From Aquitalea aquatica (GTDB lineage: Bacteria; Pseudomonadota; Gammaproteobacteria; Burkholderiales; Chromobacteriaceae), in contig NZ_JACERN010000042.1 of the NCBI RefSeq assembly GCF_013911085.1, forward strand, positions 124,001 through 188,000: a stretch of 64,000 bases of DNA, written 5' to 3'. The notes under the pieces were generated by a model that saw only the letters and a list, made by a program, of their open reading frames with translations, had not been told where the DNA came from and searched no databases. Of this stretch, positions 1-43,650 are shown in pieces. A program made the position numbers and the translations under genes. The number at the start of each line of letters is the position of its first letter. The first letter of the stretch is position 1.

Positions 1-806
1 TCCAGCACATGGCACTGACCGCTGCTGTCTTCCATGAAGTCGAAGGCCACTTGTCCGTTGAAGTGGGTGGCCTGGCCAAAGGCTTCGACAAAGGCGCGGA
101 TGGCTGGTGGATCGCTGGGTTCAAAGCAGATGCCCGAACCACCGCCCACCCGGTGGCGCGGATGGTAGCAGGCATGGGCAGTCAGGCGGCCGGCACTGAA
201 CAGGCTGTAGCTGCAATGTTCACGCCCGGCAATAAAGCGCTGCGCTACCCATGGCTGGGCCGGGGTGGGGTGCAGGCTGTCCAGTTGGCGTGCGCTCGGG
301 CAGATTCGCGTGTGTCTGGCAAAGCGTGAGTAGGCCGGTTTGAAAACCCATGGCAGCTGTTGCCCGGCTGTCGCGTGCTGGAGGATGAAGTCATCCAGCT
401 CGGCGCGGGATGACAGCAGGCTGGTTGGAGGGGCAGCTGCCGGCCAGCCTTGGGTCAGCCAGGCGAAGTGCGCCTTGTGATGCAGTCTGTGTAGCAGGGG
501 AAAATCGCTGACCAGCACCCGGCAGGACAATTGCCTGGCAATGTGCGACAGGTAAAACGCCTCCTCGCAGGTGGGCAGGATGAGGTCTATGCCCAGGCGC
601 TGGACGGCCTGCTCAAGCGCCCGGCCCCAGGCCTGGGGGGCGTGGCGCGCTTCTGGCAGGCGCAAAAAATGATCGACGGCTTTGCTGAAGCGGCTAAGCG
701 GCCAGGAGAGCGAATCGCCCACGCTGACTTCCCAGCCGGCAGCATGAAAGGCACGAGCCCATTCCAGGCAGGCTGGCGCGCGGGCGCCGGTAAGCAGGAC
801 ATGCAT
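1..806 (-). CDS. ATP-grasp domain ligase, 3' end beyond left edge (partial)
   Basis: I translated this frame by hand: it opens with ATG at 806 and stays open to base 1 (at least 268 codons), so the C-terminus is missing. The protein begins MHVLLTGARAPACLEWARAF, continues with LILPTCEEAFYL near residue 75, WVFKPAYSRF near 150 and GQVAFDFMED near the edge. This pattern fits ATP-grasp proteins of the carbamoyl-phosphate-synthase-like type: an N-terminal pre-ATP-grasp fold, then the lysine-bearing nucleotide-binding part. Such enzymes activate a carboxylate as acyl phosphate and join it to an amine or thiol. The gene is divergent from the ketosynthase operon and shares its 230-base intergenic region, so a joint role is plausible but inferred. 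Substrate unknown. Confidence 0.75.
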   Translation of the reverse strand, partial: MHVLLTGARAPACLEWARAFHAAGWEVSVGDSLSWPLSRFSKAVDHFLRLPEARHAPQAWGRALEQAVQRLGIDLILPTCEEAFYLSHIARQLSCRVLVSDFPLLHRLHHKAHFAWLTQGWPAAAPPTSLLSSRAELDDFILQHATAGQQLPWVFKPAYSRFARHTRICPSARQLDSLHPTPAQPWVAQRFIAGREHCSYSLFSAGRLTAHACYHPRHRVGGGSGICFEPSDPPAIRAFVEAFGQATHFNGQVAFDFMEDSSGQCHVL

Positions 807-928
807 GTAATGCTTTCAAAACAGGTTGAACACTGCGGGTGGTAACAATGGCTGGTCTGGCATATCCAGTATTACGGATAGGTGACATTACGCATTGCGT
901 TCATTATGCAACACTCATAAACTGCTCG

Positions 929-941
929 GTTTAAATTAAAC
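929..941. promoter_or_regulatory. 13-bp palindrome in divergent promoter region
   Basis: GTTTAA-A-TTAAAC is a perfect inverted repeat with a one-base centre. It lies in the AT-rich middle of the 807-1036 gap between the ATP-grasp gene and the ketosynthase operon. It could be an operator for divergent control. No regulator gene is adjacent, so the assignment is tentative. Confidence 0.35.
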
Positions 942-1022
942 GTAAATAGTGATTTCAGGGAAATTGATTTCCAGAGTGGCTGTTGTCGGCAATGCTGGCG
1001 GCACAGAGCGCAAGATGAAGTC

Positions 1023-1040
1023 ATGAACACACCAATATGA
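1023..1040 (+). CDS. Five-codon upstream mini-ORF (MNTPI), possible leader
   Basis: ATG at 1023 is followed by AAC ACA CCA ATA and a TGA at 1038-1040. That stop overlaps the ketosynthase ATG (1037) in the same ATGA manner seen between the genes of this operon. The bases just before 1037 (ACACCAAT) hold no Shine-Dalgarno sequence, so the ketosynthase may be translated by coupling to this mini-ORF. This is inference from sequence layout; the match may be chance. Confidence 0.3.
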   Translation: MNTPI

Positions 1041-2008
1041 AATTGATTGCCACCGGAAAGGCGCTGCCAGAACTGTCGGTCAGTGCTGCCGATCTTGATC
1101 TGCGTCTGGGCTGTCGCTCAGGTGATTGTTTGCGCAAAAGCGGGGTGCATACCCGCTATTTTGCTGGTGAGCAGGAGACACAGAGTGCACTGGCTGCGCG
1201 GGCTCTGCATGCGGCGCTGGGCAATGCCGGGCTGGGGGTGGGGGATATCGATCTGCTGATCGGTGCCTGTGGCATTCCCGAGCAGGCACTGCCGGGCACG
1301 GCCTGTTTCATCGCGCATGCTGCCGGCTTGCCAGCAGGGCTGGCCGTGTTTGATGTCAATGCCAGCTGCCTGAGTTTTCTGAGTGCCTTGCAGGTGGCCG
1401 ACAGCCTGCTACAAAGTGGTGCCTACCGTCGCATCGCTATTGTCGCTGCCGACCTCGCCTCGCGTGGGTTGGACTGGAGCAATCCCGAAGCCTCGCTGAT
1501 TTTCGGCGATGGTGCGGCCGCCGCCATTGTCGAGCGTGGCGAAGCGGGGCAGGGCTTGCGCGCTTTTCGGCTGGCCAACTATCCCGAAGGGCGACGTCAT
1601 TGCGAAATCCGCGCCGGCGGCACCCAGTGCAATCCGCGCCGTGGAGCGGTGGCCAGCGACTTTCTGTTCAATATGCAGGGCAAGGCCGTATTCAAGCTGG
1701 CCGCAGAGAAGATGCCAGCGTTTATCGACGGCCTGCTGGCGGCTACGCCGGGTGGTCTGGACAGCATAGACTGGGTGTTGCCGCATCAGGCCAGCCATCT
1801 GGCCATGCAGCATATGGCGAAAAAACTCGGTATTGGCCGCGAGCGGGTCATCGATATCTACGCCAGCCACGGTAATCAGGTGGCGGCATCCTTGCCCACC
1901 GTGCTGCACGAGGCAGTCAGCAGTGGCCGGGCGCAGCGTGGTCAACGTCTGCTGATGCTGGGGACAGCGGCCGGGCTGAGCCTGGGCGGGTTGGTATGGG
2001 ATTTATGA
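1037..2008 (+). CDS. Ketosynthase III (FabH/OleA-like)
   Basis: The 323-residue protein has the thiolase-fold ketosynthase III layout. The catalytic triad is readable as Cys111 (in FDVNASCLSF), His250 (LPHQASH) and Asn280 (ASHGNQVAAS), at nearly the same spacing as in E. coli FabH. Enzymes of this class condense an acyl thioester with malonyl-ACP (FabH) or join two acyl chains head to head (OleA). Being first of seven overlapping genes for lipid-type chemistry, it is more likely a pathway-specific ketosynthase than the housekeeping FabH, which normally sits with plsX and fabD. ATG 1037 is the first start in frame; it lacks a clear Shine-Dalgarno. Its TGA overlaps the next ATG. Confidence 0.88.
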   Translation: MKLIATGKALPELSVSAADLDLRLGCRSGDCLRKSGVHTRYFAGEQETQSALAARALHAALGNAGLGVGDIDLLIGACGIPEQALPGTACFIAHAAGLPAGLAVFDVNASCLSFLSALQVADSLLQSGAYRRIAIVAADLASRGLDWSNPEASLIFGDGAAAAIVERGEAGQGLRAFRLANYPEGRRHCEIRAGGTQCNPRRGAVASDFLFNMQGKAVFKLAAEKMPAFIDGLLAATPGGLDSIDWVLPHQASHLAMQHMAKKLGIGRERVIDIYASHGNQVAASLPTVLHEAVSSGRAQRGQRLLMLGTAAGLSLGGLVWDL

Positions 2009-3024
2009 AACAGGTGCTGGTGACCGGTGCTACCGGAGGGCTGGGGCGCAATGCCGTCGCCATGCTGTTGCAGCGTGGCTGCAGGGTACGCGCCACTGGC
2101 CGCAAGCTGGAAATTGGCCGGCAACTGGTGGCGCAGGGGGCCGAATTCCTGCAATTGGATCTGGCCAGCGCTACCCGTGCGGAAGTGGCCGCTCTGCTGC
2201 ATGGCATCGATACGGTATGGCACTGCGCCGCCTTGTCCGCCCCCTGGGGGGCGGAGGCCGATTTCATCGCCGCCAATGTGCTGGCGACCGAACGCCTGCT
2301 ACAGGCCGCTGGACAAGCCGGTGTCAGCCGCTTCGTACATATTTCCACGCCGGCACTGTATTTCGATTTTCAGCATCGCCACCAGATTCCGGAAAGCTAT
2401 CGGCCACGGCAGTATGTCAACGGCTATGCCCGCAGCAAGGCGCAGGCCGAGGACAGGGTGCAACAGGCGGTGGTCCGCTATCCGGCCATGCGCTGCATCA
2501 TCCTGCGGCCACGGGCCATTTTCGGCGAGTACGATCAGGTGCTGATACCGCGACTGGCGCGCTTGTTGCGCCGTCCGGGGGCGCGGCTGCCCTTGCCACG
2601 GGGCGGGGAAGTGTTGCTGGACCTCACCTATGTCGGCAATGTCACCCATGCCATGTGGCTGGCCAGTACCCGGCCAGAGCTACTGAGCGGCGAAGTGTTC
2701 AATATCACCAATCAGCAACCGGCGGTGCTCAAACAGGTGCTGCAACAGCTGTTTGTCGAGGAGCTGGGCTGGCCGATGCGCATTGTCAGCCCGCCTTATA
2801 CCGTGCTGCATTACGCCAGCCTGGCATTGCAGTGGCTGTCTCGGTTTAACGGGCGTGAACCGCTGCTGACGCCTTATAGTCTGGGGGCGGTGCATTTTGA
2901 CATGACGCTGGACAACCGCCGCGCCAGCGAACGGCTGGGTTATGTTCCGCCCTACAGCATGCAAGAGGGCATACAGCGTACTGCGGACTGGCTGAGGGAG
3001 CAGGCTGATGGCCATATTGCATGA
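2005..3024 (+). CDS. NAD(P)-dependent extended SDR (epimerase / 3-beta-HSD / OleD-like)
   Basis: With the start at ATG 2005, which overlaps the ketosynthase stop as ATGA, the protein has 339 residues and begins MKQVLVTGATGGLGRNAV. This is the TGxxGxxG Rossmann motif of extended SDRs. The active-site pair Tyr141/Lys145 is seen in YARSK, with the Ser/Thr of HISTPALYF at about 114-115. An ATG at 1996 in the same frame is the alternative start. The family includes OleD, which reduces the beta-keto product of OleA, and 3-beta-hydroxysteroid dehydrogenases. Reduction of the ketosynthase product is the natural reading here. It overlaps the next gene by 17 bases. Confidence 0.85.
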   Translation: MKQVLVTGATGGLGRNAVAMLLQRGCRVRATGRKLEIGRQLVAQGAEFLQLDLASATRAEVAALLHGIDTVWHCAALSAPWGAEADFIAANVLATERLLQAAGQAGVSRFVHISTPALYFDFQHRHQIPESYRPRQYVNGYARSKAQAEDRVQQAVVRYPAMRCIILRPRAIFGEYDQVLIPRLARLLRRPGARLPLPRGGEVLLDLTYVGNVTHAMWLASTRPELLSGEVFNITNQQPAVLKQVLQQLFVEELGWPMRIVSPPYTVLHYASLALQWLSRFNGREPLLTPYSLGAVHFDMTLDNRRASERLGYVPPYSMQEGIQRTADWLREQADGHIA

Positions 3025-3820
3025 GTTCAGCGTGGGTCATTGCACCCATCCGGCCTGCATGGCGCTCAAAGGCGCAGGGCTGGCCAGCCGCTGCTTTCCC
3101 TCGCGTGCTTATCTGATTGAAACCCGCGACCGCCTGCTGTTGTGGGATACCGGCTATGCCGAGCATTTCCATACCGCTACCCGCCAGGGTATCTATCGCT
3201 TGTATCCGCTGGTGACACCGGTGACCTTCAATGCGGCAGATGCCTTGTCCAGCCAGCTGCAGGCGCGCGGGGTGAACCAGCGCGACATCCATGCGCTGGT
3301 GTTGTCACACTTTCATGCCGACCATATCGCCGGCCTGCGCGACTTCCCCCAGGCCCAGCTATGGTGTTCGGCCGCAGGCTGGCAGGCTGTGCGCGGTTTG
3401 TCTGGTCTCGCCGCATTGCGGCAGGCTTTTCTTCCCGCCTTGCTGCCCGCTGATATCGATAGCCGGCTGCACTTTGTCGAAGCGCTGGAGCTGGTGGACC
3501 TGCCAGCGGAGCTGGCACCGTTCACCCTGGCCCGCGATCTTTCCGGCACTGGCGAAGTGCTAGTGGTGGACCTGCCTGGCCATGCGCCGGGGCATCTGGG
3601 GGCATTTGTCCGTACCGAGCAGGGCTGGACGCTGCTGGCGTCGGATGCCGCCTGGGCGCGCGAAGGGTTCCAGGATTTGCGTGGCCCCGCCGAACTGACT
3701 TTCCTGATCCAGCATCAGCGTGCGGCCTATTACCAGACGCTGGGCCGGCTGCATGCCTTGTACCGCAATGGCTTGCATGATATCCGCCTGACCCACCAAC
3801 AAGAGGATGGCCCGGCATGA
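3008..3820 (+). CDS. Metallo-beta-lactamase-fold hydrolase, AHL-lactonase-like
   Basis: The 270-residue protein carries HFHADH at 101-106, the zinc motif of the MBL fold. His196 (GHAPGH), Asp213 (LASDAAW) and a C-terminal His263 (LTHQQED) complete a set resembling the dinuclear site of AiiA/AttM N-acylhomoserine lactonases. These enzymes open lactone rings. No signal peptide is visible, so it is probably cytoplasmic. Within this operon it could hydrolyse a lactone or thioester intermediate. Quorum quenching is possible but less likely given the biosynthetic context. Start ATG 3008 lies inside the SDR gene, and the stop overlaps the next gene as ATGA. Confidence 0.85.
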   Translation: MAILHEFSVGHCTHPACMALKGAGLASRCFPSRAYLIETRDRLLLWDTGYAEHFHTATRQGIYRLYPLVTPVTFNAADALSSQLQARGVNQRDIHALVLSHFHADHIAGLRDFPQAQLWCSAAGWQAVRGLSGLAALRQAFLPALLPADIDSRLHFVEALELVDLPAELAPFTLARDLSGTGEVLVVDLPGHAPGHLGAFVRTEQGWTLLASDAAWAREGFQDLRGPAELTFLIQHQRAAYYQTLGRLHALYRNGLHDIRLTHQQEDGPA

Positions 3821-5106
3821 TGCGACTACTGCGAGTGCTGCAGGCCTACTGGCAGGCGCGGCGGCTGCAATTTCACGATCGGGCTGCGCTGGAGCGCTAT
3901 CAACAGCAACAGTTGGCGGTATTTCGCCGCCGCCTGCAACAGCGCAGCCCGTATTTTGCTGCGCTGGGAGACGTGCCGCTGGCGCAGTGGCCGCTGATGG
4001 ACAAGGCGCTGATGCTGCAGCATTTCGACAGCATGAACACTGCCGGACTGAGGCTGGAGCAGGTGATGCAGATCGCCCTGCATGCCGAGCACAGCCGGGA
4101 CTTTGCTCCCACCATCGGCCCCTATACCGTGGGGCTGTCCTCCGGCACCACCGCGCAGCGGGCAGCCTTTGTGGTGAGCCGGAGCGAGCAGGCGCAGTGG
4201 GCTGGCATCATGCTGGCGCGCGCCTTGCCGGATGGCCTGCTGGCGCGCGAACGCGTGGCACTGTTTCTGCGTGCCAACAGCAATCTTTACACCTCAGTGC
4301 GCAGTCGCTGGCTGACATTCCGCTATTTCGACCTGTTTCGTCCCTTTGCCGAACATCTGCCCTTGCTGGCCGACTACCAGCCCAGCATCTTGCTGGCACC
4401 GGCCCAGGTCTTGCGTGAACTGGCACTGGCGCAACTGCAAGGCCGCATCCGCTTGCAGCCCAAGCGGGTGTACTCCATTGCCGAGGTGCTGGAAGCACAG
4501 GACCGGCAACTGGTTGAACAGGCTTTTGGCACCGTGCATGAAATCTACCAGGCAACCGAGGGCTTTCTCGCCAGCACCTGTGCCGCCGGGGTGTTGCACC
4601 TGAACGAGGAGTATGTGCATGTCGAGCCGGAATGGCTGGACGATGCACACCGCCGCTTCGTGCCGGTGATTACCGACTTCAGCCGCTATACCCAGCCCAT
4701 CGTGCGCTACCGGCTGAACGACGTGCTGCTGGCGCGCGCCACGCCCTGCCCATGTGGCCGTGCCAGCATGGCACTGGACGGGGTGGAGGGGCGCTGTGAC
4801 GACATGCTGCTGCTGCCCGATCACCAAGGGCAGCCACAAACGGTATTTGCCGACCTGCTTGGCCGTGCGCTGGCCCAGGTCTTGCCATTTGATGCCGACT
4901 ACCGGCTGCGGCAAACCGGCCCCAGCCGGCTGACGCTGCATCTGGCACTGCCTGTCGGGCAGCAGGCGGCGGTGCAGGCACATCTGGAGCGCGTACTGCA
5001 GGGCGCTGGTGTGGATGTGGCGGCATTGCAGTGGCAACACGAGCAGACCTTGCCGCCGCTGGATACCAGCCGCAAGCGGCGACGCATCATCCGGGAGCTG
5101 GCATGA
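3817..5106 (+). CDS. F390-synthetase/PaaK-like adenylate-forming enzyme
   Basis: This 429-residue protein belongs to the phenylacetate-CoA-ligase/CapK/F390-synthetase side of the adenylating superfamily. Visible motifs are LSSGTT at 107-112 (phosphate loop), a YQATEGF segment near 246, VRYRLND with the ribose-binding Asp near 301, and PCPCGRAS just after it. Such enzymes adenylate a carboxylate or a related group. True F390 synthetase modifies coenzyme F420, but nothing here suggests F420 use, so acyl activation is preferred. In the olefin pathway the adenylating enzyme OleC follows the OleD reduction; this protein belongs to a different branch and could take an analogous step. It overlaps both neighbours by four bases. 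Confidence 0.8.
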   Translation: MMRLLRVLQAYWQARRLQFHDRAALERYQQQQLAVFRRRLQQRSPYFAALGDVPLAQWPLMDKALMLQHFDSMNTAGLRLEQVMQIALHAEHSRDFAPTIGPYTVGLSSGTTAQRAAFVVSRSEQAQWAGIMLARALPDGLLARERVALFLRANSNLYTSVRSRWLTFRYFDLFRPFAEHLPLLADYQPSILLAPAQVLRELALAQLQGRIRLQPKRVYSIAEVLEAQDRQLVEQAFGTVHEIYQATEGFLASTCAAGVLHLNEEYVHVEPEWLDDAHRRFVPVITDFSRYTQPIVRYRLNDVLLARATPCPCGRASMALDGVEGRCDDMLLLPDHQGQPQTVFADLLGRALAQVLPFDADYRLRQTGPSRLTLHLALPVGQQAAVQAHLERVLQGAGVDVAALQWQHEQTLPPLDTSRKRRRIIRELA

Positions 5107-5723
5107 ACAGACTGCTGAGCCAGTTGCCGCCCCGCCTGCGGCATTTGCTGCTGGGCTGGGGCTCGGTGGGCTGTGCCTATACCCTGGGCAGTCTGCGCAG
5201 CGGACCGGCCTGGGTGCTGCCGGAGCTGGCCAGTGACCGCTTGCTGGCTTTCGATCCTTCGGCCATCTGGCTGTATCTGTCGTTTTTCCTGTTGGTTCCT
5301 GCTGCCTTTTGGCTGACGCCGCCGCAGCGGCTGCGCTGGCTGCAACACGCCATGCAGCTGTCGGCATTGCTGGCTGGCCTGGTTTTCCTGTTGTGGCCCA
5401 CTACGCTGGTCTATCCGCCAGCTTTGTCAGCGCCATCGCATGGCGTGCTGCAGCTTTTGCTGCAGTTCGACACCCCGGGTAACTGTCTGCCGTCCTTGCA
5501 TGGCGCGCTGACCTGGCTGGCCTTGTCGGCGCTGTGGGATGGCCGGCGGCCCTGGCGCAATACGCTGCTATTGCTGTGGGCGCTGGCCATCATGCTGGCG
5601 GTGGTTCAGCTGCGTCGTCATCTGACACTCGATCTGGGGGCGGGCTTGTTGCTTGGCCTGTTTAGTGGCTGGCTGGCAGCCCGTCCTGTTCTGCATTCTT
5701 TTTTTCGGTATCGCTGCGCATGA
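5103..5723 (+). CDS. PAP2-superfamily membrane phosphatase
   Basis: Starting at ATG 5103, which overlaps the previous stop, the protein has 206 residues. An open frame reaches back to 5031, but that would need a long overlap. It is strongly hydrophobic with about five or six membrane segments. The PAP2 signature is seen as NCLPSLHGALT (PSxH motif, about residues 129-139) and RRHLTLDLGAG (RxxxxxxD-type third motif, about 174-184). The first K-x6-RP motif is not evident, as in inositol-phosphorylceramide-synthase-like PAP2 members. A lipid phosphate or phosphotransfer substrate in the inner membrane is likely. It is coupled to a membrane hydroxylase and a desaturase. Confidence 0.78.
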   Translation: MNRLLSQLPPRLRHLLLGWGSVGCAYTLGSLRSGPAWVLPELASDRLLAFDPSAIWLYLSFFLLVPAAFWLTPPQRLRWLQHAMQLSALLAGLVFLLWPTTLVYPPALSAPSHGVLQLLLQFDTPGNCLPSLHGALTWLALSALWDGRRPWRNTLLLLWALAIMLAVVQLRRHLTLDLGAGLLLGLFSGWLAARPVLHSFFRYRCA

Positions 5724-6814
5724 ATGTATTTGCCCTGACCTTCGCCCTGATGCTGGCCATCGTGCTGCTGGAGCTGCTGGCCTTGCGCCACTGGCGCAAG
5801 GAGGCCATTCCCTGGCATGAGATCGTGTTCAACCTGAATTCCGGCCATATCCTGATGTGGGCGCTGCGTGGCGTCGAGGTGGCGATGTTCGGCTGGCTGT
5901 TGACCCATGCCAACCTGCATCTGGTGGATCGCTTGCCGCTCTATGCCCAGTGGCTGGTGGCGATTGTCGGCTGGGACTTGAGCTTTTACTGCATGCACCG
6001 CGCCCACCACCGCTGGCCGCTGTTGTGGGCAGTTCATCGCGTGCATCACCAGGGTGAGCATTTCAGCCTGTCGCTGGGTATTCGCAATTCCTGGTATTCC
6101 TCGCTCACTTCGCTGTTGTTCGTGGCACCACTGGCGGTGCTGGGTTTGCCGCTGGAGCTGTTTGTCGCCGCCTCCTCGTTTCATTACGCGGTGCAGCTGT
6201 ATAACCATAATGCCTTTGTCGGCCGTTCCGGCTGGCTGGAGGGGCTGCTGGTAACGCCGGCTGCGCACCGGGTACATCACGCTACCCATCCGCTTTATCT
6301 CAACCGCAACTTTGGCGGCACTTTCCTGCTGTGGGACCGCTGTTTTGGCAGTTATCAGCCGCCGCGCGACGATGTGCCGCTGGTGTATGGTGTGCCGGGT
6401 AGTGCCGCGTCCTTCAACCCGCTGCTAGCCAGCAATCCCTGGCTGGCGGCCTGGTCCTGGCCTTGGAGTCGGGCCGGGAAAAGCGATGCCGGATGGCAGA
6501 TCAGTGGCAGTTATATTGCCTGCGGTGCCGTGCTGCTGTTTGGCTGGGTGATTTACTACGTACAGATGACTGGCAGTTTCACCCTCTGGCAGCAATGGAG
6601 CCTGTTTGGCGCACTACTGGCCGGTACGCTGGCTCTGGGTGCGATGTCGGACCGGCAGCGGCTTGGCTGGTGGGCCTGGCAACTGCTGGCGCTGGGCTTG
6701 CCCCTGGCTTGTGGCATGCTGCTGGGCCTGCGTGATACTGCAGCACTGGTCTTGTCTGCACTATTGCTATTGCATGGCGTGCTGGGCTGGCGTCGTGCGG
6801 AGGTAGTGGTATGA
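5720..6814 (+). CDS. Sterol desaturase / fatty acid hydroxylase family protein with C-terminal membrane extension
   Basis: The 364-residue protein has the di-iron histidine clusters of the fatty-acid-hydroxylase superfamily: MHRAHHRW and VHRVHHQGEH between about residues 92 and 115, and HRVHHATHP near 185. These enzymes use O2 to hydroxylate or desaturate acyl chains or lipid head groups in the membrane. After the catalytic core (about 1-240) the protein runs on with roughly four more hydrophobic segments (about 255-360), which the basic family does not need. The gene overlaps the PAP2 and desaturase genes by four bases each. Substrate is unknown; a long-chain lipid is inferred from context. 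Confidence 0.85.
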   Translation: MNVFALTFALMLAIVLLELLALRHWRKEAIPWHEIVFNLNSGHILMWALRGVEVAMFGWLLTHANLHLVDRLPLYAQWLVAIVGWDLSFYCMHRAHHRWPLLWAVHRVHHQGEHFSLSLGIRNSWYSSLTSLLFVAPLAVLGLPLELFVAASSFHYAVQLYNHNAFVGRSGWLEGLLVTPAAHRVHHATHPLYLNRNFGGTFLLWDRCFGSYQPPRDDVPLVYGVPGSAASFNPLLASNPWLAAWSWPWSRAGKSDAGWQISGSYIACGAVLLFGWVIYYVQMTGSFTLWQQWSLFGALLAGTLALGAMSDRQRLGWWAWQLLALGLPLACGMLLGLRDTAALVLSALLLLHGVLGWRRAEVVV

Positions 6815-7905
6815 GTCAGCTGCGTTTTCAGTCATCGCGGCAACTGGCCTTCCGCGTGGCACTGCAACAGGCGGCGCAGGATTATCTGGCCGAGCAGGGG
6901 TGTCACCGCTACGCCGGATTTGGCATGGCCGGCAAAGCAGCACTGCTGGGCGGCCTGAGCCTGTACTGTTATTGGCTGGCCGTGCATGCCACGCAGGGCT
7001 GGAGCTTTGCCGCAGCCTATATCGCTGCATTTGTGCTGGCCATGCTGCTGGCGATGAATACCCTGCATGATGCCGCACATGGTGCGGTGTTCCGTTCTGC
7101 CGTGCTGAACCGGCTGCTGGCACGGCTGACCAGCCTGCCGATGGGGGTGGATGCCGATATCTGGACGCGCCGTCATGTCCATCTGCACCATACCTATCCC
7201 AATGTCGAAGAATACGATCTGGATATCGAGCCCAATCCCTTCTTGCGGCAGACCCCATTCCAGGCCTGGGCCGCGCAGTATCGCTGGCAGCATCGCTACT
7301 GGCCGTTGATTGCTGCGTTGTCCCTGCCTTATCTGTGCTGGTATGGCGACTGGCTGGACTGGCTGGGCAAGAGCAAGCTGCGGCTGCGTGATGCGAGGCC
7401 TATCAATACGCCGTATTTTCTGGCCAGCAAGGCCGCCCATGTGCTGCTGGCGCTGTGGCTACCGCTGTGGCTACCGCTGTGGCTGCTGCAGGGTAGCGCC
7501 ATTGGCTGGGGCACGGTGCTGCTGTGCTATGTGGCCGGGCAGATGCTGGCTTCCTGTTTTCTGGTGGCCATGATTCTTGGCACGCACTGGGCTGATGTCG
7601 CCTTTTTCCAGCCGGATGCAACTGGCCGCTTGCCACACACTTGGCATGAGCACCAGTTTCTGACCTGTTGCGACTGGCTGCCGGCACCTGCTTTGCTTGG
7701 CGGCTTGCTCGGCGGCCTGCATCTGCACCTGACCCATCACCTGTTTCCGGCCTACAGTCATCGCCACTATCCGGCGCTGGCCCGCATCGTGCAGCAGCAG
7801 GCGGCGGCACATGGCCTGCCATATCGCTGCCTGAGCTATCCGCAACTTTGGCGGGCGCAACAGCGTTTCCTGCGTGCAATGGGGCTGCGGCCGGAGGCCT
7901 CATGA
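6811..7905 (+). CDS. Membrane fatty acid desaturase
   Basis: The 364-residue protein shows the three histidine boxes of acyl-lipid desaturases: HDAAHG near residue 86, HVHLHH near 121 and HLTHH near 306, with hydrophobic stretches between them. It uses O2 and two electrons from a ferredoxin or cytochrome b5-type donor to insert a double bond. No donor domain is fused and none is encoded nearby. A perfect 12-base direct repeat in the coding region gives the sequence WLPLWLPLW near residue 215. It is the last gene of the seven-gene run. A non-coding stretch follows and the next gene has its own ribosome-binding site. Confidence 0.88.
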   Translation: MSQLRFQSSRQLAFRVALQQAAQDYLAEQGCHRYAGFGMAGKAALLGGLSLYCYWLAVHATQGWSFAAAYIAAFVLAMLLAMNTLHDAAHGAVFRSAVLNRLLARLTSLPMGVDADIWTRRHVHLHHTYPNVEEYDLDIEPNPFLRQTPFQAWAAQYRWQHRYWPLIAALSLPYLCWYGDWLDWLGKSKLRLRDARPINTPYFLASKAAHVLLALWLPLWLPLWLLQGSAIGWGTVLLCYVAGQMLASCFLVAMILGTHWADVAFFQPDATGRLPHTWHEHQFLTCCDWLPAPALLGGLLGGLHLHLTHHLFPAYSHRHYPALARIVQQQAAAHGLPYRCLSYPQLWRAQQRFLRAMGLRPEAS

Positions 7906-8047
7906 GCATGCCGCGCTGCACTATGCCGCTTTGTGTGTGCAGATGTGTAGCAAGCTGGGGCGGGCAATAGTTCTTCACACTGTTTTACAAGCGGTTACCT
8001 GCCGTTGGTTAATCTGGACTGGTATCAACGCACTGGAGGTCCAGTCC

Positions 8048-8449
8048 ATGAAAACCCGAATCCTGATCCCCGCGCTGTTGGCGCTTTCCTTCACCGGCAT
8101 GGCTTATGCCGATGCTTCTGCCATCCTGGGTGGTGCGCTTGGTGGTGCGGTGGGTGCTGCCGTTGGCCAGTCCATCGGTGGCCGTAACGGTGCCATCATC
8201 GGTGGCGCAGTGGGTGGCAGCGTAGGCACTGCGCTGGCCTACCAGCGTGATGACTACCGCGCTTACCGCCCGGCACCGGCGCCGGTACCGGTTTACCAGC
8301 CGGTGGCTTATGTTGCCCCTGTGCGCTATGTCGAGCCGCCGCGTTATCCGCACTGGCATGAAGACCGACGTGAGCCATACCGCGATTGGCATGATCGCGG
8401 ATGGCATGGCCGTGGGTGGCGCGACGGTTATTATCGTTACGGCGATTGA
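8048..8449 (+). CDS. Secreted glycine-zipper protein
   Basis: The 133-residue protein starts at ATG 8048 behind a GGAGG at about 8035-8039. It has a signal peptide (MKTRILIPALLALSFTGMAYA) and then a glycine-zipper region with repeated GGAxGG and GxxxG units (residues about 28-65). The tail is rich in Pro, Tyr, Trp, His and Arg. Such proteins usually sit in the envelope, with the zipper inserting into or spanning a membrane. Function unknown. It is transcribed alone and ends at a strong terminator. Confidence 0.8.
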   Translation: MKTRILIPALLALSFTGMAYADASAILGGALGGAVGAAVGQSIGGRNGAIIGGAVGGSVGTALAYQRDDYRAYRPAPAPVPVYQPVAYVAPVRYVEPPRYPHWHEDRREPYRDWHDRGWHGRGWRDGYYRYGD

Positions 8450-8672: not shown

Positions 8673-8716
8673 TTGCCTGTCGGGCTTGCTGTTCCTTATA
8701 ATTGATTAGCAATCAA
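8673..8716 (+). promoter_or_regulatory. Promoter with overlapping MarR-type operator
   Basis: TTGCCT (8673-8678) and TATAAT (8697-8702) are separated by 18 bases. TTGATT-AGC-AATCAA (8702-8716) is a perfect inverted repeat that begins in the -10 box and covers the expected transcription start. A repressor bound here would block initiation, so autorepression by the adjacent MarR protein is likely. It also means a start codon at 8702 is impossible. Confidence 0.7.
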
Positions 8717-8737
8717 ATCATTCACATGCGAAGCATT

Positions 8738-9223
8738 ATGAACAGTGTAGATTTACTACGGCTTGGCATCACCAGTGCCATCATGCACGCCGGGCGCAAA
8801 TGGCGGCATATTTCACAGGATGTGGTGTTTGGTCATGGCCTGACCGCGCCTTGTGCCACGGCGCTGATTTTCATCGGCCGCCTGGGCGAGGGCATCAACC
8901 AGATCGCGCTGGCCGAGGAAATCGGCATCGAAGGACCATCGCTGGTGCGGGTGATCGACCAGCTGGCTGCAGATGGCCTGGTACGGCGTGAGAAAGGCAA
9001 GGAAGACCGTCGCTCCAATACCTTGTGGTTCACCGAGTCGGGCAGGGCACTGACAGCCAGGATAGAGGCCGAGCTGGTGGCTTTGCGCACGCTGGTATTC
9101 AAGGATGTGACACCGGCTGATCTGGAAGCCACCTTGCGGGTGTTCGCGGCGGTGGAGTCCGCCTATCAGCGGCCGGGACTGGTGGCCGAACTGGCAGCCA
9201 TGGCTGGCCAGGCACGCACATGA
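8738..9223 (+). CDS. MarR-family transcriptional regulator
   Basis: The 161-residue protein has a winged-helix domain: helix-turn-helix around GINQIALAEEIGIEGPSLVR, then a wing with RREKGKEDRRSN. It resembles the SlyA/MarR type that senses phenolic compounds. ATG 8738 is chosen because the frame upstream runs into the promoter at 8702; ATG 8726 is an alternative, and GAAG at 8730-8733 is a weak ribosome-binding site. It is the first gene of a five-gene efflux operon, overlapping the pump gene as ATGA. It is the likely repressor acting at the palindrome at 8702-8716. Confidence 0.88.
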   Translation: MNSVDLLRLGITSAIMHAGRKWRHISQDVVFGHGLTAPCATALIFIGRLGEGINQIALAEEIGIEGPSLVRVIDQLAADGLVRREKGKEDRRSNTLWFTESGRALTARIEAELVALRTLVFKDVTPADLEATLRVFAAVESAYQRPGLVAELAAMAGQART

Positions 9224-11289
9224 CGCTGCCGGGCTGGCGTGACTGGCTGTTTTCGGCCAAGGCCTTTGCTGCAGCCATGCTGGCGCTGTACCTGGCCATG
9301 GCGCTGGAGCTGCCGCGGCCATATTGGGCCATGGCCACGGTGTATGTGGTATCGCATCCGCTGACCGGGGCCACCCGCTCCAAGGCGGTATACCGTATTG
9401 GCGGCACCTTGATCGGAGCATCGGCCGCCGTCATTCTCATGCCGCTGTTTGTCAATGCGCCCACCCTGCTAAGCCTAGTGGTGGCGCTGTGGACGGGCAC
9501 GCTGCTAAGCGTCTCGCTGCTGGATCGCACCCCGCGCAGCTATCTGTTCATGTTGTCGGCCTATACGCTACCGATGATTGCCTTGCCGGCGCTGAACAGT
9601 CCGGAAGGCATTTTCGATCTGGCACTGGCGCGCAGCGAGGAAATCCTGGTGGGCATCCTGTGCGCCAGCGTAGTGTCAGCGCTGGTGTGGCCGGGCAAGG
9701 TGGCGCCCATTTTCAGCGCGCGTATTGGCAGTTGGCTGGGTGATGCCCGCGACTGGGCTTGCGAGCTGCTGCAGCAGAGTGATGCCGCCAGCCAGCCCGC
9801 ACATGCCAGCCGCCACAAGCTGGCGGCGGATATCCTGGCGCTGGATCAGTTCATCTCTCACTTGTCTTACGACACCACCAGTTTTGCCATGGTGAAAAAC
9901 GCCCGCGAACTGCGCGGCCGCATGAGCATGCTGTTGCCGATTTTGTCGTCGCTGACCGAAACCAAGCAGGCATTGCTGCGCCAGCAAAACGGTGTGCCCA
10001 GCGGGCTGAGCGAGCTGATGCACGAGGTGGCACGCTGGATGGCCAGCCCTGATCTGGCCCATCTTCGTCGCGAAGCACCCTTGCTGCAACGGCGTCTGGC
10101 AACATTGAAACAGCAGATCGCCAGCGGCGACAGCTGGCAGGCACTGCTGATTGCCCACGGGCTGGCGCGTTTGCAATCGCTGATCAACCTGTGGCTGGAC
10201 TGCCGCTTATTGCAGCAACTGATCGCCGAAGAGCATCCTACTTTCCAGTGGAAAGCGGCTTATCGTCATTGGCCGGTGGGCGGCACGGCGCGCCATTACG
10301 ATTACGGCATGATGGCGTTTTCCTCGCTGCAGGCTTCTGCTGCCATATTCCTGGCATCCCAGTTGTGGATTCAGCTGGGCTGGACCGATGGTTCCGGTGC
10401 CGTGATCATGGTGGCCATTGCCTCCTGCTTCTTTGCCGCGCTGGACGAGCCCGCGCCGATGATGCGCACCTTCCTGATCTGGGCGCTGGTCAGCATCGTG
10501 CTGACTACCGTGCTCTTGTTCATGGTGATTCCCGCGGCCTATACCTTTGAAATGCTGGTGGCGATGCTGGCTGTCCCGTTCTTGCTGGTAGGGACGCTGT
10601 TTACCCGGCCGCAATTCACCATGATTGCCATGATGCTGACGGTGAATACCGCCACCTTTCTCAGCCTGCAAGGCGCTTACGATACTGACTTCACCGCCTT
10701 CTTCAATGGCAACGTGGCTACCGTGGTGGGCGTGTCGTTTGCGCTGCTGTTCAGTCTGCTGGTTCGTCCCTTTGGCATCGAGCTGGCCATCCGTCGGCTG
10801 CGTCGTGCCAGCTGGCATGACCTGGCCGAAACCTCGGCGGGCCGCCGCCTGGAGGATTATTCCCAGCTCACCGCACGTATGCTGGACCGGCTGGGCCTGC
10901 TGATTCCACGGCTGGCCGCCAGTGGCCACGACCAGTTGCCACAAGTATTCAATGAGTTGCGCGCCGGCTTCAGTGTGTTGCATCTGCAGCGGGATGAAAA
11001 TGCCCAGGCCGGCCCCGCCGGGGTGGCGGTGCAGCAGGTGCTGGACGAAGTCCAGCGGCATTACCGCCAGGCGCTGCAGCAGCGACAGCAGCCACAGGCC
11101 GATGTCCGCCTGTTACAGCGTATCGATGCCGCGCTTAATCAGCTGCTGGCAAGCGGCCGCCGTAGTGATCATCACCTGCTCACCGTGCTGAACGCCCTGG
11201 TTGAATTGCGCATTACCCTGTTTCCGGCTGCCGGCAACTATGCCATGGCAGCCAGCTCACCCTTGCCTGCAGGAGGCTCGACGCCGTGA
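9220..11289 (+). CDS. FUSC/AaeB-like aromatic acid efflux permease
   Basis: The 689-residue inner-membrane protein has the FUSC layout: an N-terminal block of about six membrane helices (residues about 10-160), a cytoplasmic domain, a second block of helices (about 365-510) and a C-terminal cytoplasmic domain. AaeB and related proteins export aromatic carboxylic acids or fusaric acid with a membrane-fusion partner. The downstream DUF1656, HlyD and outer-membrane genes form the matching tripartite system, and a MarR gene leads it, so export of a toxic aromatic compound is the likely role. Exact substrate unknown. The overlap downstream is GTGA. Confidence 0.88.
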   Translation: MTLPGWRDWLFSAKAFAAAMLALYLAMALELPRPYWAMATVYVVSHPLTGATRSKAVYRIGGTLIGASAAVILMPLFVNAPTLLSLVVALWTGTLLSVSLLDRTPRSYLFMLSAYTLPMIALPALNSPEGIFDLALARSEEILVGILCASVVSALVWPGKVAPIFSARIGSWLGDARDWACELLQQSDAASQPAHASRHKLAADILALDQFISHLSYDTTSFAMVKNARELRGRMSMLLPILSSLTETKQALLRQQNGVPSGLSELMHEVARWMASPDLAHLRREAPLLQRRLATLKQQIASGDSWQALLIAHGLARLQSLINLWLDCRLLQQLIAEEHPTFQWKAAYRHWPVGGTARHYDYGMMAFSSLQASAAIFLASQLWIQLGWTDGSGAVIMVAIASCFFAALDEPAPMMRTFLIWALVSIVLTTVLLFMVIPAAYTFEMLVAMLAVPFLLVGTLFTRPQFTMIAMMLTVNTATFLSLQGAYDTDFTAFFNGNVATVVGVSFALLFSLLVRPFGIELAIRRLRRASWHDLAETSAGRRLEDYSQLTARMLDRLGLLIPRLAASGHDQLPQVFNELRAGFSVLHLQRDENAQAGPAGVAVQQVLDEVQRHYRQALQQRQQPQADVRLLQRIDAALNQLLASGRRSDHHLLTVLNALVELRITLFPAAGNYAMAASSPLPAGGSTP

Positions 11290-11489
11290 TCGGTGAAATC
11301 GAAATCTACGGGGTGTATTTCCCCAGCCTGCTGATCCTGATGGTGCTGGCCTTTGGCGTTACCGCCGGCCTGCGCATTCTTTTGGGTCAGCTGGGCTTCT
11401 ACAAACTGGTATGGCACCGTTCTTTGATGAACTTTGCCTTGTATGTGATTGTGCTCGGCGGTTTCGTCGTGCTGACTCGCGGATGGTAA
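11286..11489 (+). CDS. DUF1656 small membrane protein (AaeX-like)
   Basis: This 67-residue protein starts with GTG at 11286, overlapping the permease stop. It has two hydrophobic segments (about residues 12-32 and 48-64) and begins MIGEIEIYGVYFP, typical of the DUF1656/AaeX family that accompanies FUSC permeases and HlyD proteins. Its function in the pump is not established. Its TAA stop overlaps the next ATG. Confidence 0.85.
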   Translation: MIGEIEIYGVYFPSLLILMVLAFGVTAGLRILLGQLGFYKLVWHRSLMNFALYVIVLGGFVVLTRGW

Positions 11490-12373
11490 TGATGAAAAAG
11501 CTGATAGGTAAAGCAGGGCCGGTGGTGCTGACCCTGATCGTGGTGGTGGCGGCCGTGCTGGTGGGGCGCTACCTGTGGGATTACTACACCAATGCGCCGT
11601 GGACGCGGGACGGCCATATCCGTGCCGACGTGGTGCAGATCGCCCCGGATGTGTCCGGGCTGATTACCGAGGTGAAAGTCACTGACAACCAGCTGGTGAA
11701 GCGCGGCCAGGTGTTGTTTGTCATCGACCGCGCCCGCTACGCACTGGCACTCAAGCAGGCCGAAGCCGCACTGGCACAGCAGAGCGCCGGGCTGCTGCAG
11801 GCAAAACGCGAGGCCGCGCGCAACCGTGGCCTGAGTGATCTGGTAGCCAGAGAAAACATCGAGCAGAGCGAAGCCCGTGTGCAACAGGATGAGGCCAGTG
11901 TCGCCGCCGCCGCAACTGCGGTGGAAGTGGCGCGGCTCAATTTGCAGCGCACGGTAGTGAGCAGCCCGGTGGATGGTTATCTCAACGACCGCACCCCACG
12001 GGTGGGCGATTATGTCAGTACCGGCAAGCCAGTGTTATCGATGGTGGACGCCCATTCCTTCCATGTGGATGGTTATTTCGAAGAAACCAAGATGAACCGG
12101 GTACAGGTCAATCAGCCGGTGGAGATCCAGATCATGGGCGAGACGCACAAGCTGCGCGGCCATGTGCAGAGCATTGCTGCCGGCATCGAAGATCGTGACC
12201 GCAGCAACGGCGCCACCTTGCTGCCCAATGTTAACCCTACCTTCAACTGGGTGCGGCTGGCCCAGCGCATTCCGGTGCGCATTACCCTGGATGAAGTCCC
12301 GGCCGACTTCCGCATGATCGCCGGGCGCACCGCCACCGTGGCCGTGGTGGCCGGCAAGGGAGGCCAGCAGTGA
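11489..12373 (+). CDS. HlyD-family periplasmic adaptor (AaeA-like)
   Basis: From ATG 11489, overlapping the DUF1656 stop, the protein has 294 residues; ATG 11483 and 11492 are alternatives. There is one N-terminal membrane anchor (about residues 8-28), then NAPWTRDGHIRADVV, the biotinyl-lipoyl-like half motif of membrane-fusion proteins, a coiled-coil hairpin (about 85-140) and a beta-barrel part. It links the FUSC permease to the outer-membrane protein encoded next. The gene overlaps its downstream neighbour as GTGA. Confidence 0.88.
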   Translation: MMKKLIGKAGPVVLTLIVVVAAVLVGRYLWDYYTNAPWTRDGHIRADVVQIAPDVSGLITEVKVTDNQLVKRGQVLFVIDRARYALALKQAEAALAQQSAGLLQAKREAARNRGLSDLVARENIEQSEARVQQDEASVAAAATAVEVARLNLQRTVVSSPVDGYLNDRTPRVGDYVSTGKPVLSMVDAHSFHVDGYFEETKMNRVQVNQPVEIQIMGETHKLRGHVQSIAAGIEDRDRSNGATLLPNVNPTFNWVRLAQRIPVRITLDEVPADFRMIAGRTATVAVVAGKGGQQ

Positions 12374-13812
12374 GCCGTCTTTATCCTGCCAGCCTGCTGC
12401 TGGTGCTGACTACGCTGGCTGGCTGCACCACCGTGGGCCCGGATTACCAGCTGCCGGCCAATTCCGCCATGCAACGTCAGGCAGCACAGGGCCGCTTTGC
12501 CAATGCCGATGGCCGGCTAAGCTCCAGCCAGCCAGTTGCCCCACGCTGGTGGCAGCTCTACCACGACCCGGTGCTGAACCAGCTGGTGGAGCAGGCGCAA
12601 CAGGCCAATACCGATTTGCGCGCTGCCACGGCCAATCTGCAAAAGGCCTTGGCGGTGGCGAGCGAAGTCAGTGCCGAGGCCGGCCCGCATGCAGCGCTGG
12701 CGGCGTCGGCCGAGCGGGCGCGCATCTCCGGCCAAAGCATGTTGCTGGACGTGCCGTTACCGGTGAGCAATCTGGGTGACGAGGGCATCCGTGTGGCTTA
12801 CCAGCTCGACTTGTTTGGCAAGCTCAGACGCGGCGACGAGGCTGCCGAAGCCAATAGTGAAGCCAGTGCCGCCGCCCGCGATCTGGCCCGCATCACCGTC
12901 ACCGCCGAAACCGTGCGCAGTTATCTGCAGATATGCTCGGCCAATCATGGCTATCAGGTATTGCAGCGGCAGTCTGCCTTGCAGCAGAAACAGCTGGAAC
13001 TGACGCGCCGCCTGGCCAGTGCCGGCCGGCTCACCGCCACCGATGTGCTGCGCGCCCAAGCCCAGGCCGACAGCGTAGCGGCCGGCCTGCCGGCCTATCA
13101 GGCCCAACGCGACGCTGCGCGTTACCGTCTGGCCATGCTGCTGGGGCAAACCCCGGCTGAAACCCTGCCACCTGCAGCACTGTCCTGCGCGCAGGAGCCA
13201 CAGCTGGCGCAAGCCATTCCGGTAGGTGATGGCCGGACCTTGCTGGCGCGGCGGCCGGATGTGAAGCAGGCCGAGCGCAAACTGGCGCAATCCAGCGCCA
13301 TGATAGGCGTGGCTACTGCCGAGCTGTATCCCAGCATTACTTTGGGGGCATCGGCTGGTTTTACCGGCTTACTCGAAGATGTTGGACAGCGTTCCACCCA
13401 GCGTTTCGGCTATGGTCCGCTGATCAGCTGGACCATTCCCGACAGCGGCGCACGCGCCAGGGTGACGGCTGCCAAGGCCGATAATGCGGCGGCACTGGCG
13501 CACTTCGATGGCGTGGTGCTCAATGCCCTGCGCGAGGTGGAAACCAGCCTCAGCCTGTATGGCAAGGATTTGCAGCGGCTGGCTTTGCTGCGCACGGCGC
13601 GTGACAGTGCCAGCCAGGCCGCCGCGCAGAATCGCCGGCTGTATCAGGCAGGGCGCTCTCCCTATTTGTCCAGCCTGGATGCCGATCGCACTCTGGTCAG
13701 TAACGAAATGGCCGTGGCCAGCGCGGAAAGCCAGCTGGCACAGGATCAGGTCAATCTGTTCCTGGCGCTGGGCGGCGGCTGGGAAGAGGGCAAGCCCCAG
13801 GCTGCTCACTAG
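12370..13812 (+). CDS. Outer-membrane efflux lipoprotein (NodT/OprM-like)
   Basis: The 480-residue protein starts with GTG 12370. It carries a lipobox (LTTLAGC) with Cys at about residue 19, followed by TTVGPDYQLP, the classic start of NodT-family channel proteins. Two OEP repeats follow, with coiled-coil helices and a second-half motif ELYPSITLGASAGF. It forms the outer-membrane tunnel of the MarR-controlled tripartite pump and is the last gene of that operon. Confidence 0.9.
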   Translation: MSRLYPASLLLVLTTLAGCTTVGPDYQLPANSAMQRQAAQGRFANADGRLSSSQPVAPRWWQLYHDPVLNQLVEQAQQANTDLRAATANLQKALAVASEVSAEAGPHAALAASAERARISGQSMLLDVPLPVSNLGDEGIRVAYQLDLFGKLRRGDEAAEANSEASAAARDLARITVTAETVRSYLQICSANHGYQVLQRQSALQQKQLELTRRLASAGRLTATDVLRAQAQADSVAAGLPAYQAQRDAARYRLAMLLGQTPAETLPPAALSCAQEPQLAQAIPVGDGRTLLARRPDVKQAERKLAQSSAMIGVATAELYPSITLGASAGFTGLLEDVGQRSTQRFGYGPLISWTIPDSGARARVTAAKADNAAALAHFDGVVLNALREVETSLSLYGKDLQRLALLRTARDSASQAAAQNRRLYQAGRSPYLSSLDADRTLVSNEMAVASAESQLAQDQVNLFLALGGGWEEGKPQAAH

Positions 13813-41418: not shown

Positions 41419-41865
41419 GGTGATTTCCTTGATGTGTAAACGGCATTCGGTAAAAAAGCCTGCGGTACTTGGCTTGGCCGTGCTGCATTCTACAAACGGA
41501 TAACAAAAAATCCATCTTTGATGATTTCGTCATGCCTGACGGCTCTTGCTGACCAGTAGCTGTTTGGACCAGTAGCTGTTTGCATGACGCTTCCATTTTT
41601 ATCCGCCACTTTCTGCGTTTTGTCTTGCGGTTTCTGCCTGGACGTACTGGGGAGGGTGGTCGGCCAGCCCTCCTGGCTGTTTCTGGGTCGGTCAAAGTTG
41701 CATAAAAATTAATGATTCAATAAAGAAGATATATATATTTTCCGTATTCAAGACCCTTCCCTAGACTGCAGTGGTCAGGCCGGCATGCCAACCGTGCAGC
41801 CCGGCCACCACCCGCGCCAGCCTTGTCGTGCCGGCGGGTGGGCATACACAGGGGAGGAGACGACG
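41419..41865. other. 447-base intergenic region between divergent genes
   Basis: The region separates the kinase-partner gene (minus) from the monooxygenase gene (plus). It contains the tandem duplication at 41551-41582, a GGAGGG/CCCTCC stem at 41651-41673 and an AT-rich tract near 41710-41745 (TATATATATTTT) that could hold promoter elements. No convincing gene is present. Confidence 0.6.
41551..41582. repeat. Perfect 16-bp tandem duplication inside an inverted repeat
   Basis: GACCAGTAGCTGTTTG occurs twice back to back (41551-41566 and 41567-41582). The pair is flanked by CGTCATGC (41528-41535) and GCATGACG (41582-41589), an 8-bp inverted repeat. It could be a paired regulator site or a replication-slippage product. 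Confidence 0.75.
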
Positions 41866-43155: not shown

Positions 43156-43227
43156 AACAACAGCCCCGCCAATCAGACACATCCGGGCTGTTCGCTCAGC
43201 CCGCCATCCACTGCCATGAGGTGAAAT

Positions 43228-43650
43228 ATGGTTCACAAGCGCATTCGTCCCTTCAATACCAAAGAAACCTATCCGGAACAAAAGCTCGACAATGATCTGT
43301 GTCAGGCGGTGGTGGCCGGCAATATCGTCTTCCTGCGCGGGCAGATCGGTCAGGATCTGGACACCCGCGAATCGGTGGGCATCGGCGATGTTGCAGTACA
43401 AACCGAAAAAGCCATGGCCAATGTGAAAATGCTGCTGGAGGAGTCGGGCAGCTGCCTGGATCACGTGTGCAAGATCGTCATCTATCTGGTGGACACCCGC
43501 TATCGCGAGACGGTGTACCAGGTCGTGGGCAAGTGGCTGAAAGGGGTGTATCCGGTGTCTACCGGGCTGGTGATTTCGGCGCTGGCGCGGCCGGAATGGC
43601 TGGTGGAAATCGACATCACCGCCGTTATTCCCGAGGGCTATCAGCCATGA
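43228..43650 (+). CDS. RidA/YjgF-family protein without the catalytic Arg
   Basis: The 140-residue protein has the YjgF/RidA fold: VFLRGQIGQDLDTRESVGIGD, then VKMLLEESGSCLDHVCKIVIYLVD. Where RidA enzymes have the imine-binding Arg (PARxxV), this protein reads PVSTGLVISALARP, so it is a different Rid subgroup and may not be a 2-aminoacrylate deaminase. It starts at ATG 43228 behind GAGG and overlaps the DUF1028 gene as ATGA. Confidence 0.85.
   Translation: MVHKRIRPFNTKETYPEQKLDNDLCQAVVAGNIVFLRGQIGQDLDTRESVGIGDVAVQTEKAMANVKMLLEESGSCLDHVCKIVIYLVDTRYRETVYQVVGKWLKGVYPVSTGLVISALARPEWLVEIDITAVIPEGYQP

Follow-up and report, generated by a model that had tools for sequence, protein, structure and literature searches.

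Gene content and organization of the locus

The left end of a 64,000-nucleotide stretch of Aquitalea aquatica DNA (the window; G000:C23:124001-188000 in host genome coordinates) carries seven plus-strand genes for a ketosynthase, a reductase, a hydrolase, an adenylate-forming enzyme and three membrane enzymes. Eight open reading frames (ORFs) were confirmed there: these seven genes at 1037-7905 and one minus-strand ATP-grasp gene truncated at the window edge. With the GNAT and Rieske genes that follow the ATP-grasp gene outside the window, the locus in the host genome comprises ten genes. It is near certain that the genes belong to a real genetic unit that is conserved and modular and is either present or missing as one block. 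The features are as follows.

1037..2008, plus strand: KASIII-type ketosynthase, related to NF005541/PRK07204 (336 bits, cut-off 402)
1996..3024, plus strand: extended short-chain dehydrogenase/reductase (SDR) resembling 3-beta-hydroxysteroid dehydrogenases; OleD-like, below cut-off; Tyr144-Lys148
3008..3820, plus strand: metallo-beta-lactamase-fold (MBL) hydrolase with all seven metal positions; putative thioesterase or lactonase
3817..5106, plus strand: F390 synthetase-related adenylate-forming enzyme (TIGR02304, 494 bits, cut-off 251.9); Lys420
5103..5723, plus strand: PAP2-family membrane phosphatase; marginal Pfam match, E. coli homologue named PAP2 in RefSeq
5720..6814, plus strand: membrane di-iron hydroxylase of the FA_hydroxylase (sterol desaturase) family; OlsE-like, below cut-off
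6811..7905, plus strand: membrane fatty-acid desaturase (FA_desaturase); family match
3..806, minus strand: ATP-grasp ligase, N-terminal 268 of 382 residues; related to NF005315, below cut-off; runs on to G000:C23:123658
807..1036, no strand: divergent intergenic region
G000:C23:122516-123679, outside the window: GNAT-type gene, after the ATP-grasp gene
G000:C23:121524-122519, outside the window: Rieske gene, after the GNAT gene

The six plus-strand junctions overlap by 13, 17, 4, 4, 4 and 4 bases. The preliminary description was right in its seven overlapping genes and divergent ATP-grasp gene, while its overlaps of 4 to 20 bases become 4 to 17 on measurement. The PAP2 ORF could open upstream at 5031; the ATG at 5103 yields the 4-base junction. 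A promoter scan of the divergent intergenic region found no sigma-70-type consensus. On the other strand, the 382-residue ATP-grasp protein is followed by a 387-residue GNAT protein and a Rieske oxygenase-type protein, with gene overlaps of 22 and 4 bases.

Conservation of the core and one chromosomal site in three states

To follow the locus across bacteria, we scanned one genome per species with the F390-type enzyme, which has at least 577 relatives; the best 80, hence closer ones, were kept as genome loci. The genes for KASIII, SDR, MBL and F390-type enzyme occur in that order in 76 of the 80 loci, with gaps of at most 50 bases between core genes in 75 of these 76. A search for the same order in other genomes had been proposed as a check on the operon, and its outcome contradicts a scatter of conserved single genes. 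The PAP2, hydroxylase and desaturase genes lie on the same strand in 60 loci, 57 of which have the full core; in some loci the desaturase gene stands ahead of the KASIII gene or is doubled. Four loci lack the full ordered core: L056 is a contig of 5.8 kb, and in the other three, L037, L042 and L061, which are not short contigs, no ORF for KASIII was detected. In the Burkholderia-group loci L037 and L042 (~7000-8200), a desaturase gene occupies the KASIII place and is followed by SDR, MBL, F390, PAP2 and hydroxylase genes. Hosts among the 80 include Chromobacterium, Janthinobacterium, Burkholderia, Ralstonia, Pseudomonas, Serratia, Pectobacterium, Xenorhabdus, Providencia and Escherichia. Beyond them the core is found in Ketogulonicigenium, Paenibacillus and Pontibacillus, and in Fusobacterium in another order with KASIII last. 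The same core thus recurs across phyla, and the gene set is more than a chance assembly. For the seven proteins, the matrices of pairwise distances correlate with one another at 0.69-0.95 (60-86 loci; L002 left out for fused ORF calls), against at most 0.20 when each pair was permuted 200 times; shared host descent contributes to this correlation.

The seven-gene set is present in 672 of 5426 complete E. coli genomes; for 671 of these the match covers 80% or more of the query, and the seven E. coli proteins are 45-54% identical to those of the window. Among the 30 E. coli matches listed, two carry O25:H4 or ST131 in their names. In the one E. coli chromosome examined, the seven genes have narI on one side and the rtT/tRNA-Tyr genes on the other; in other Escherichia, and in Citrobacter and Leclercia, the loci follow genes that resemble narHJI by length, as judged by eye. 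Two records filed as plasmids look chromosomal: L003 from E. coli (386 kb, with narGHJI and hns) and L117 from Fusobacterium vincentii (2.1 Mb). The TIGR02304 cut-off is passed in 2 of 10 genomes of the genus, 6 of 61 of the family and, in an even sample of the phylum, 7 of 398, with the window's own genome counted in all three; among the genus genomes scanned, G002-G009 have no TIGR02304 match. The distribution is patchy, and the cluster is not rare.

Within the genus, the operon occupies one chromosomal site, flanked by a potassium-channel-like gene (named by eye) on the left and a MarR gene on the right. The distance between the flanks is 0.7-0.8 kb in the seven genomes G002-G008 (G008 being 61% complete), 8.0 kb in G001 and 11.2 kb in G000; in G009 the left flank gene has no clear copy. 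Judged from these distances, the site is empty in the seven relatives G002-G008. In G000 it holds the seven genes together with the ATP-grasp, GNAT and Rieske genes. In its closest relative, G001, DNA comparison recovers the seven-gene stretch at 89% identity, and a block of ~3.3 kb with the ATP-grasp, GNAT and Rieske genes (G000:C23:121524-124806, the end of which is window 1-806) is missing, so that the flanks nearly abut. The site is empty, seven-gene or ten-gene within one genus, and thus the operon is gained or lost as a unit. The right flank (window 8702-13812) comprises the MarR regulator and a FUSC-family efflux protein (Pfam), followed by what look by eye like a membrane-fusion factor and an outer-membrane factor, and its MarR-FUSC part is matched in 10 of 10 genus genomes.

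Because the ~3.3 kb are missing in G001 while the seven-gene stretch is present, the ATP-grasp/GNAT/Rieske block is a unit separate from the operon. That the ATP-grasp gene has a fixed role in the operon was considered and rejected: the gene is absent at the same site in G001 and present in 1 of the 80 genome loci. The divergent ATP-grasp gene of the preliminary description is real; it opens an add-on block that a close relative lacks and is no part of the conserved operon.

Elsewhere in the window, at 41761-46284, four minus-strand ORFs have no Pfam match at E 1e-4 and may not be genes; GC content is low (0.527 at 44001-46000) in or near them.

Enzyme families, catalytic residues and exchangeable modules

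Catalytic residues are kept in all or nearly all of the 67 to 90 rows aligned per family. These counts exclude seven short loci and any row that fell under a limit of length or score; a few of the remaining rows are near-copies. The closest solved relatives of the KASIII protein by sequence are MxnB (185 bits), CorB (169 bits) and FabH (168 bits). In the same sequence search of solved structures, 3fk5 and 3row, which we take to be OleA chains, score 67-70 bits. The predicted KASIII model (mean predicted local distance difference test score 88.4) has MxnB as its first structural match, followed by CorB and FabH, and 3fk5 and 3row are absent among the 50 structural matches listed. The triad Cys111-His250-Asn280, of the FabH type, is kept in 84 of 84 rows. 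Against the FabH model TIGR00747 the protein scores 205.6 bits, below the cut-off of 292.1, and a separate FabH-like KASIII with 34% identity is encoded elsewhere in the host genome.

The preliminary description had seen OleA-OleD logic, chain condensation followed by reduction, in the first genes. According to one study, OleA and PpyS use a glutamate of the partner subunit, while MxnB and CorB carry Val94 at that site and are placed in the FabH clade (PMC4578411). Position 85 of the KASIII protein, a Leu in the window's enzyme and assigned to the glutamate site through the MxnB and CorB alignments, is Leu in 81 and Ile in 3 of the 84 rows, and is thus hydrophobic as in MxnB and CorB. OleD is the best NCBIfam model of the SDR, at 134.2 bits against the NF042422 cut-off of 580, and neither the OleB alpha/beta hydrolase nor the OleC AMP-binding enzyme has a family member among the ten genes, the absence of OleB having been recognized at the outset. 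Membership in the Ole-type head-to-head condensation systems is rejected on the glutamate site and on kinship and fold, both nearer to MxnB, CorB and FabH. Since residues and kinship both point that way, a decarboxylative or 3-ketoacyl condensation is more likely for this enzyme.

The seven metal-ligand positions of the MBL protein (HxHxDH, His, Asp, His) are kept in 87 of 87 rows. Its nearest families are acyl-homoserine lactone (AHL) and pyridoxolactone lactonases, and it scores far below every lactonase cut-off listed, for instance 57.9 bits against 375 for the AiiA-type AHL lactonase model NF045699. We infer a thioesterase role. The adenylate-forming enzyme matches TIGR02304 over residues 5-427 and is a clear member, as expected from its earlier assignment to the F390/PaaK branch and not to OleC. 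Its adenylation motifs (SSGT, YQxTEG and the C-terminal Lys) are intact, with S108, G110, E248 and K420 in 90 of 90 rows and T111 in 89 of 90. BagE/FevW and PaaK are only distant kin. BagE/FevW make esters directly, and because of this weak kinship the present enzyme may likewise hand its adenylate straight to an acceptor.

The last three genes belong to membrane lipid enzyme families, in agreement with the first description of three membrane lipid enzymes after the core. The Pfam score of the PAP2 protein is marginal (27.1 against 27 bits). The hydroxylase resembles the ornithine-lipid hydroxylase OlsE (NF052566) at 65.2 bits, against a cut-off of 475. Neither hydroxylase nor desaturase has a sequence match among solved structures at E up to 1. 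Histidine motifs are kept in 85 of 85 desaturase rows and in 66 or 67 of 67 hydroxylase rows.

The full-length ATP-grasp protein scores 384.4 bits against NF005315 (PRK06849) and its Paenibacillus relative 364.1, both below the cut-off of 406, which none of the 61 family genomes passes. The 387-residue protein is a homologue of the GNAT protein of the Paenibacillus cluster, at 44% identity; a GNAT relative has one match among solved structures, with an E value of 0.89. The ATP-grasp block accompanies the same core in Bacillota and in Alpha- and other Betaproteobacteria. ATP-grasp and GNAT genes lie with the core in Paenibacillus, Paraburkholderia and Uliginosibacterium; GNAT, Rieske and convergent ATP-grasp genes do so in Shinella, two Rhizobium genomes, a Roseateles-named record marked unverified and two further genomes. 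In three Rhizobiaceae, a DUF3419 gene replaces the ATP-grasp gene beside the core. DUF3419 (PF11899, gathering score 28.2 bits) scores 145.8 bits in L153 and 360.5 bits in L164, and the window's genome has no match to it. We take DUF3419 to be the BtaA family; BtaA transfers the 3-amino-3-carboxypropyl group of S-adenosylmethionine to a lipid. All 16 fetched GNAT loci carry exactly one of ATP-grasp (12) or DUF3419 (4), never both. Of these loci, 13 have the core, including the window locus, and three do not (two Deinococcus and G638). Plasmids contain 12 records of GNAT relatives, with the core in 9 of the 11 examined; in the twelfth an F390 gene lies ~1.1 kb away by coordinates. Because one replaces the other beside the same GNAT, this pattern suggests that ATP-grasp and DUF3419 both supply an amino-acid-type group for GNAT to acylate.

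The modules also occur on their own. Two Deinococcus plasmids (L152, 6793-9041, and L154, 6772-9029) carry ATP-grasp and GNAT genes and no KASIII/F390 core in the fetched stretch, and the pair is therefore a module of its own. In L164 (6658-9948, from G638), a full-length DUF3419 gene stands beside the same GNAT gene and a phosphoesterase-like gene (by eye), with no core, and its product is possibly an N-acylated homoserine-type lipid. In L116 (~6095-8140, from G017), a relative with no TIGR02304 match, the ATP-grasp gene adjoins a Rieske-like gene. ATP-grasp occurs with no GNAT in L005, L006, L007, L115, L116 and L158.

Other modules with the same core include an NRPS-type protein (nonribosomal peptide synthetase) with adenylation and carrier domains, seen in two Betaproteobacteria and an uncultured proteobacterium; NRPS is counted in 3 of the 80 loci, and its N-terminal condensation domain is our reading of a motif. 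GT21 is present in 7 of the 80 loci, all Enterobacterales, as SDR and GT21 genes mostly with a gene for a 194-residue protein and a second glycosyltransferase gene; three of the seven also have PAP2, hydroxylase and desaturase genes. Fusobacterium has GT21 and the 194-residue protein with the core, and some tails contain a macrolide-type glycosyltransferase. On a quick tree of 71 F390 rows, the number of changes per label is 1 for NRPS, 1 for DUF3419, 6 for ATP-grasp, 3 for GT21 and 11 for hydroxylase-desaturase. The tree left out 28 of the 80 genome loci as near-duplicates or short, L002, L006, L010, L103-L106 and L161-L163 were not entered, and eight rows are long branches, which makes deep placements unsure.

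Proposed pathway, alternatives and related systems

Against this observed background of gene content, order, co-divergence, catalytic residues, module exchange and presence or absence at one site, every reaction, the order of the steps and the product are read from sequence and stay putative. The product is likely lipid-like, and a single pathway with a lipid-type product, as first proposed, finds support. The gene order KASIII-SDR-MBL-F390 suggests a sequence of condensing, reducing, hydrolysing and adenylating. The KASIII enzyme would join an acyl starter to a thioester, malonyl or 3-ketoacyl, drawn from primary metabolism; a carrier protein was not seen among the ten genes. The SDR would reduce the 3-keto group and the MBL enzyme hydrolyse the thioester to a free 3-hydroxy acid, which the F390-type enzyme would adenylate and then transfer, as its acyl group, to an acceptor in ester or amide linkage. 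The PAP2 phosphatase, di-iron hydroxylase and di-iron desaturase may then modify the membrane-bound product. The ATP-grasp/GNAT/Rieske module would add an amino-acid-type head group, N-acylate it and oxidise the product; elsewhere a BtaA-like, NRPS or GT21 module may take the head-group place. This reading, a modular lipid (amphiphile) cassette with a fixed four-enzyme core and exchangeable head-group and tailoring modules, has in our judgement slightly less than an even chance of being right in its main lines. More tentatively, it may represent a previously undescribed lipid class, in which the core provides an activated 3-hydroxy acyl anchor, swappable modules add amino-acid or sugar heads, the PAP2, hydroxylase and desaturase enzymes tailor the chains, and the whole moves between species as a cassette.

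Several observations weigh against the cassette. The kinship of the KASIII enzyme with MxnB and CorB would also suit a secreted pyrone-like compound, and the MBL family includes lactonases too. KASIII can be dispensable, broken or supplied elsewhere, as suggested by L037, L042 and L061. In Pseudomonas plasmids, the F390 gene of L006 has no core nearby and the core genes of L007 are interrupted by others and spread over ~10 kb, while ATP-grasp also occurs with no core (Deinococcus L152 and L154; G017 and G026); for these reasons the links between core, ATP-grasp and F390 are frequent and not obligate. The GNAT assignment comes from RefSeq names and weak Pfam (Acetyltransf_6) matches in two relatives, and the window genome's own copy has no Pfam match. 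The weakest point is the E. coli-type seven-gene form, which has no obvious head-group enzyme and whose product is least clear.

The most serious alternative, unlikely as we judge it, is a secreted small molecule, a signal or antibiotic such as a pyrone, beta-lactone or acylated amino acid, with the MBL protein as a lactonase or editing enzyme. It would account for a KASIII nearest to the pyrone-forming MxnB and CorB, an MBL protein nearest to AHL and pyridoxolactone lactonases, the macrolide-type glycosyltransferase of some tails and a patchy distribution (7 of 398 phylum-sample genomes); it sits poorly with the trio of membrane lipid enzymes, found in 60 of 80 loci and together with the full core in 57, and with the lack among the ten genes of a polyketide synthase such as mxn and cor have. 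A strict ceramide- or ornithine-lipid-like pathway, giving an N-acylated aminolipid that is hydroxylated, desaturated and sometimes glycosylated, is improbable. The OlsE-like hydroxylase (65 bits), the pairing of GNAT with ATP-grasp or DUF3419 in 16 of 16 loci and the GT21 of some tails, a family that holds ceramide glucosyltransferases, speak for it. No serine palmitoyltransferase-type gene occurs among the ten genes, however, and in the 60 loci that have the three tail genes together the fetched stretch never contains a GNAT; the one exception is the window's genome.

Head-to-head condensation of the Ole type is very improbable. OleD as best SDR model (134 bits) and the order ketosynthase, reductase, adenylating enzyme are what it would predict, but the catalytic glutamate of OleA and PpyS (PMC4578411) is Leu or Ile in 84 of 84 rows, the presumed OleA structures score 67-70 bits against 185 for MxnB and are missing from the structural matches listed, and the ten genes include no OleB or OleC homologue. 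That the genes are unrelated and merely share a transcript is scarcely credible: single genes are missing in some loci and one Pseudomonas plasmid has an interrupted core, yet order, co-divergence and overlapping junctions hold across phyla, the conserved order already contradicting it, and the genes are present or absent as one block at one site.

About one in eight complete E. coli genomes, some disease-associated E. coli among them, carry the gene set, and few species have had their membrane lipids studied so well. If the lipid reading holds, many Beta- and Gammaproteobacteria, these E. coli included, produce an as yet unnamed lipid or a metabolite derived from one. Head-group chemistry can be predicted and tested directly from the replacement of ATP-grasp by a BtaA-like enzyme beside the same GNAT, and the site in its three states (empty, seven genes and ten genes) provides natural strain pairs for mass spectrometry.

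Judged by titles and abstract openings, no published description of the cluster was found in the open-licence literature, though one may exist elsewhere; within that literature, the earlier remark that no named pathway has this gene set stands. 'F390 synthetase' appears in a gene table (PMC5467263), in transcript and protein lists (PMC5501837), in a conjecture on the ligase of a cluster of ladderane type (PMC2649909) and, for a gene that may or may not be of this family, as a row among transposon mutants of Pseudomonas syringae pv. actinidiae (PMC9823363).

Among known systems, the OleABCD olefin and beta-lactone pathway shares a ketosynthase followed by an OleD-like SDR and an adenylating enzyme; it differs from the present locus, where the catalytic glutamate is absent, the SDR stays below the OleD cut-off, the adenylating enzyme is of another branch and no OleB is found among the ten genes. 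MxnB and CorB of myxopyronin and corallopyronin biosynthesis, which join two 3-ketoacyl thioesters, are nearest by sequence and fold, with the same Cys-His-Asn triad and no OleA-type glutamate. In contrast to their systems, the ten genes include no polyketide synthase partner, and an OleD-like SDR, an MBL protein and an F390-type enzyme follow the ketosynthase. The housekeeping KASIII FabH is alike in fold, triad and score, whereas the present KASIII falls below the fabH cut-off and the host has its own FabH-like gene. TIGR02304, 'F390 synthetase-related protein' in NCBIfam, clearly includes the adenylating enzyme, but the model name carries no function, and BagE/FevW and PaaK are distant. The Pseudomonas quinolone signal operon pqsABCDE also joins KASIII enzymes, an MBL-fold thioesterase and an acyl-adenylating ligase. 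Unlike that operon, the locus has no anthranilate chemistry genes that we could see, adds an SDR and membrane enzymes, and encodes an MBL protein among whose 14 solved relatives PqsE is absent. The BtaA betaine-lipid and OlsB/OlsE ornithine-lipid pathways resemble the locus in its OlsE-like hydroxylase and in the DUF3419 and GNAT enzymes that accompany the core in relatives; here the hydroxylase stays below the OlsE cut-off, and such enzymes are attached to a KASIII/F390 core.

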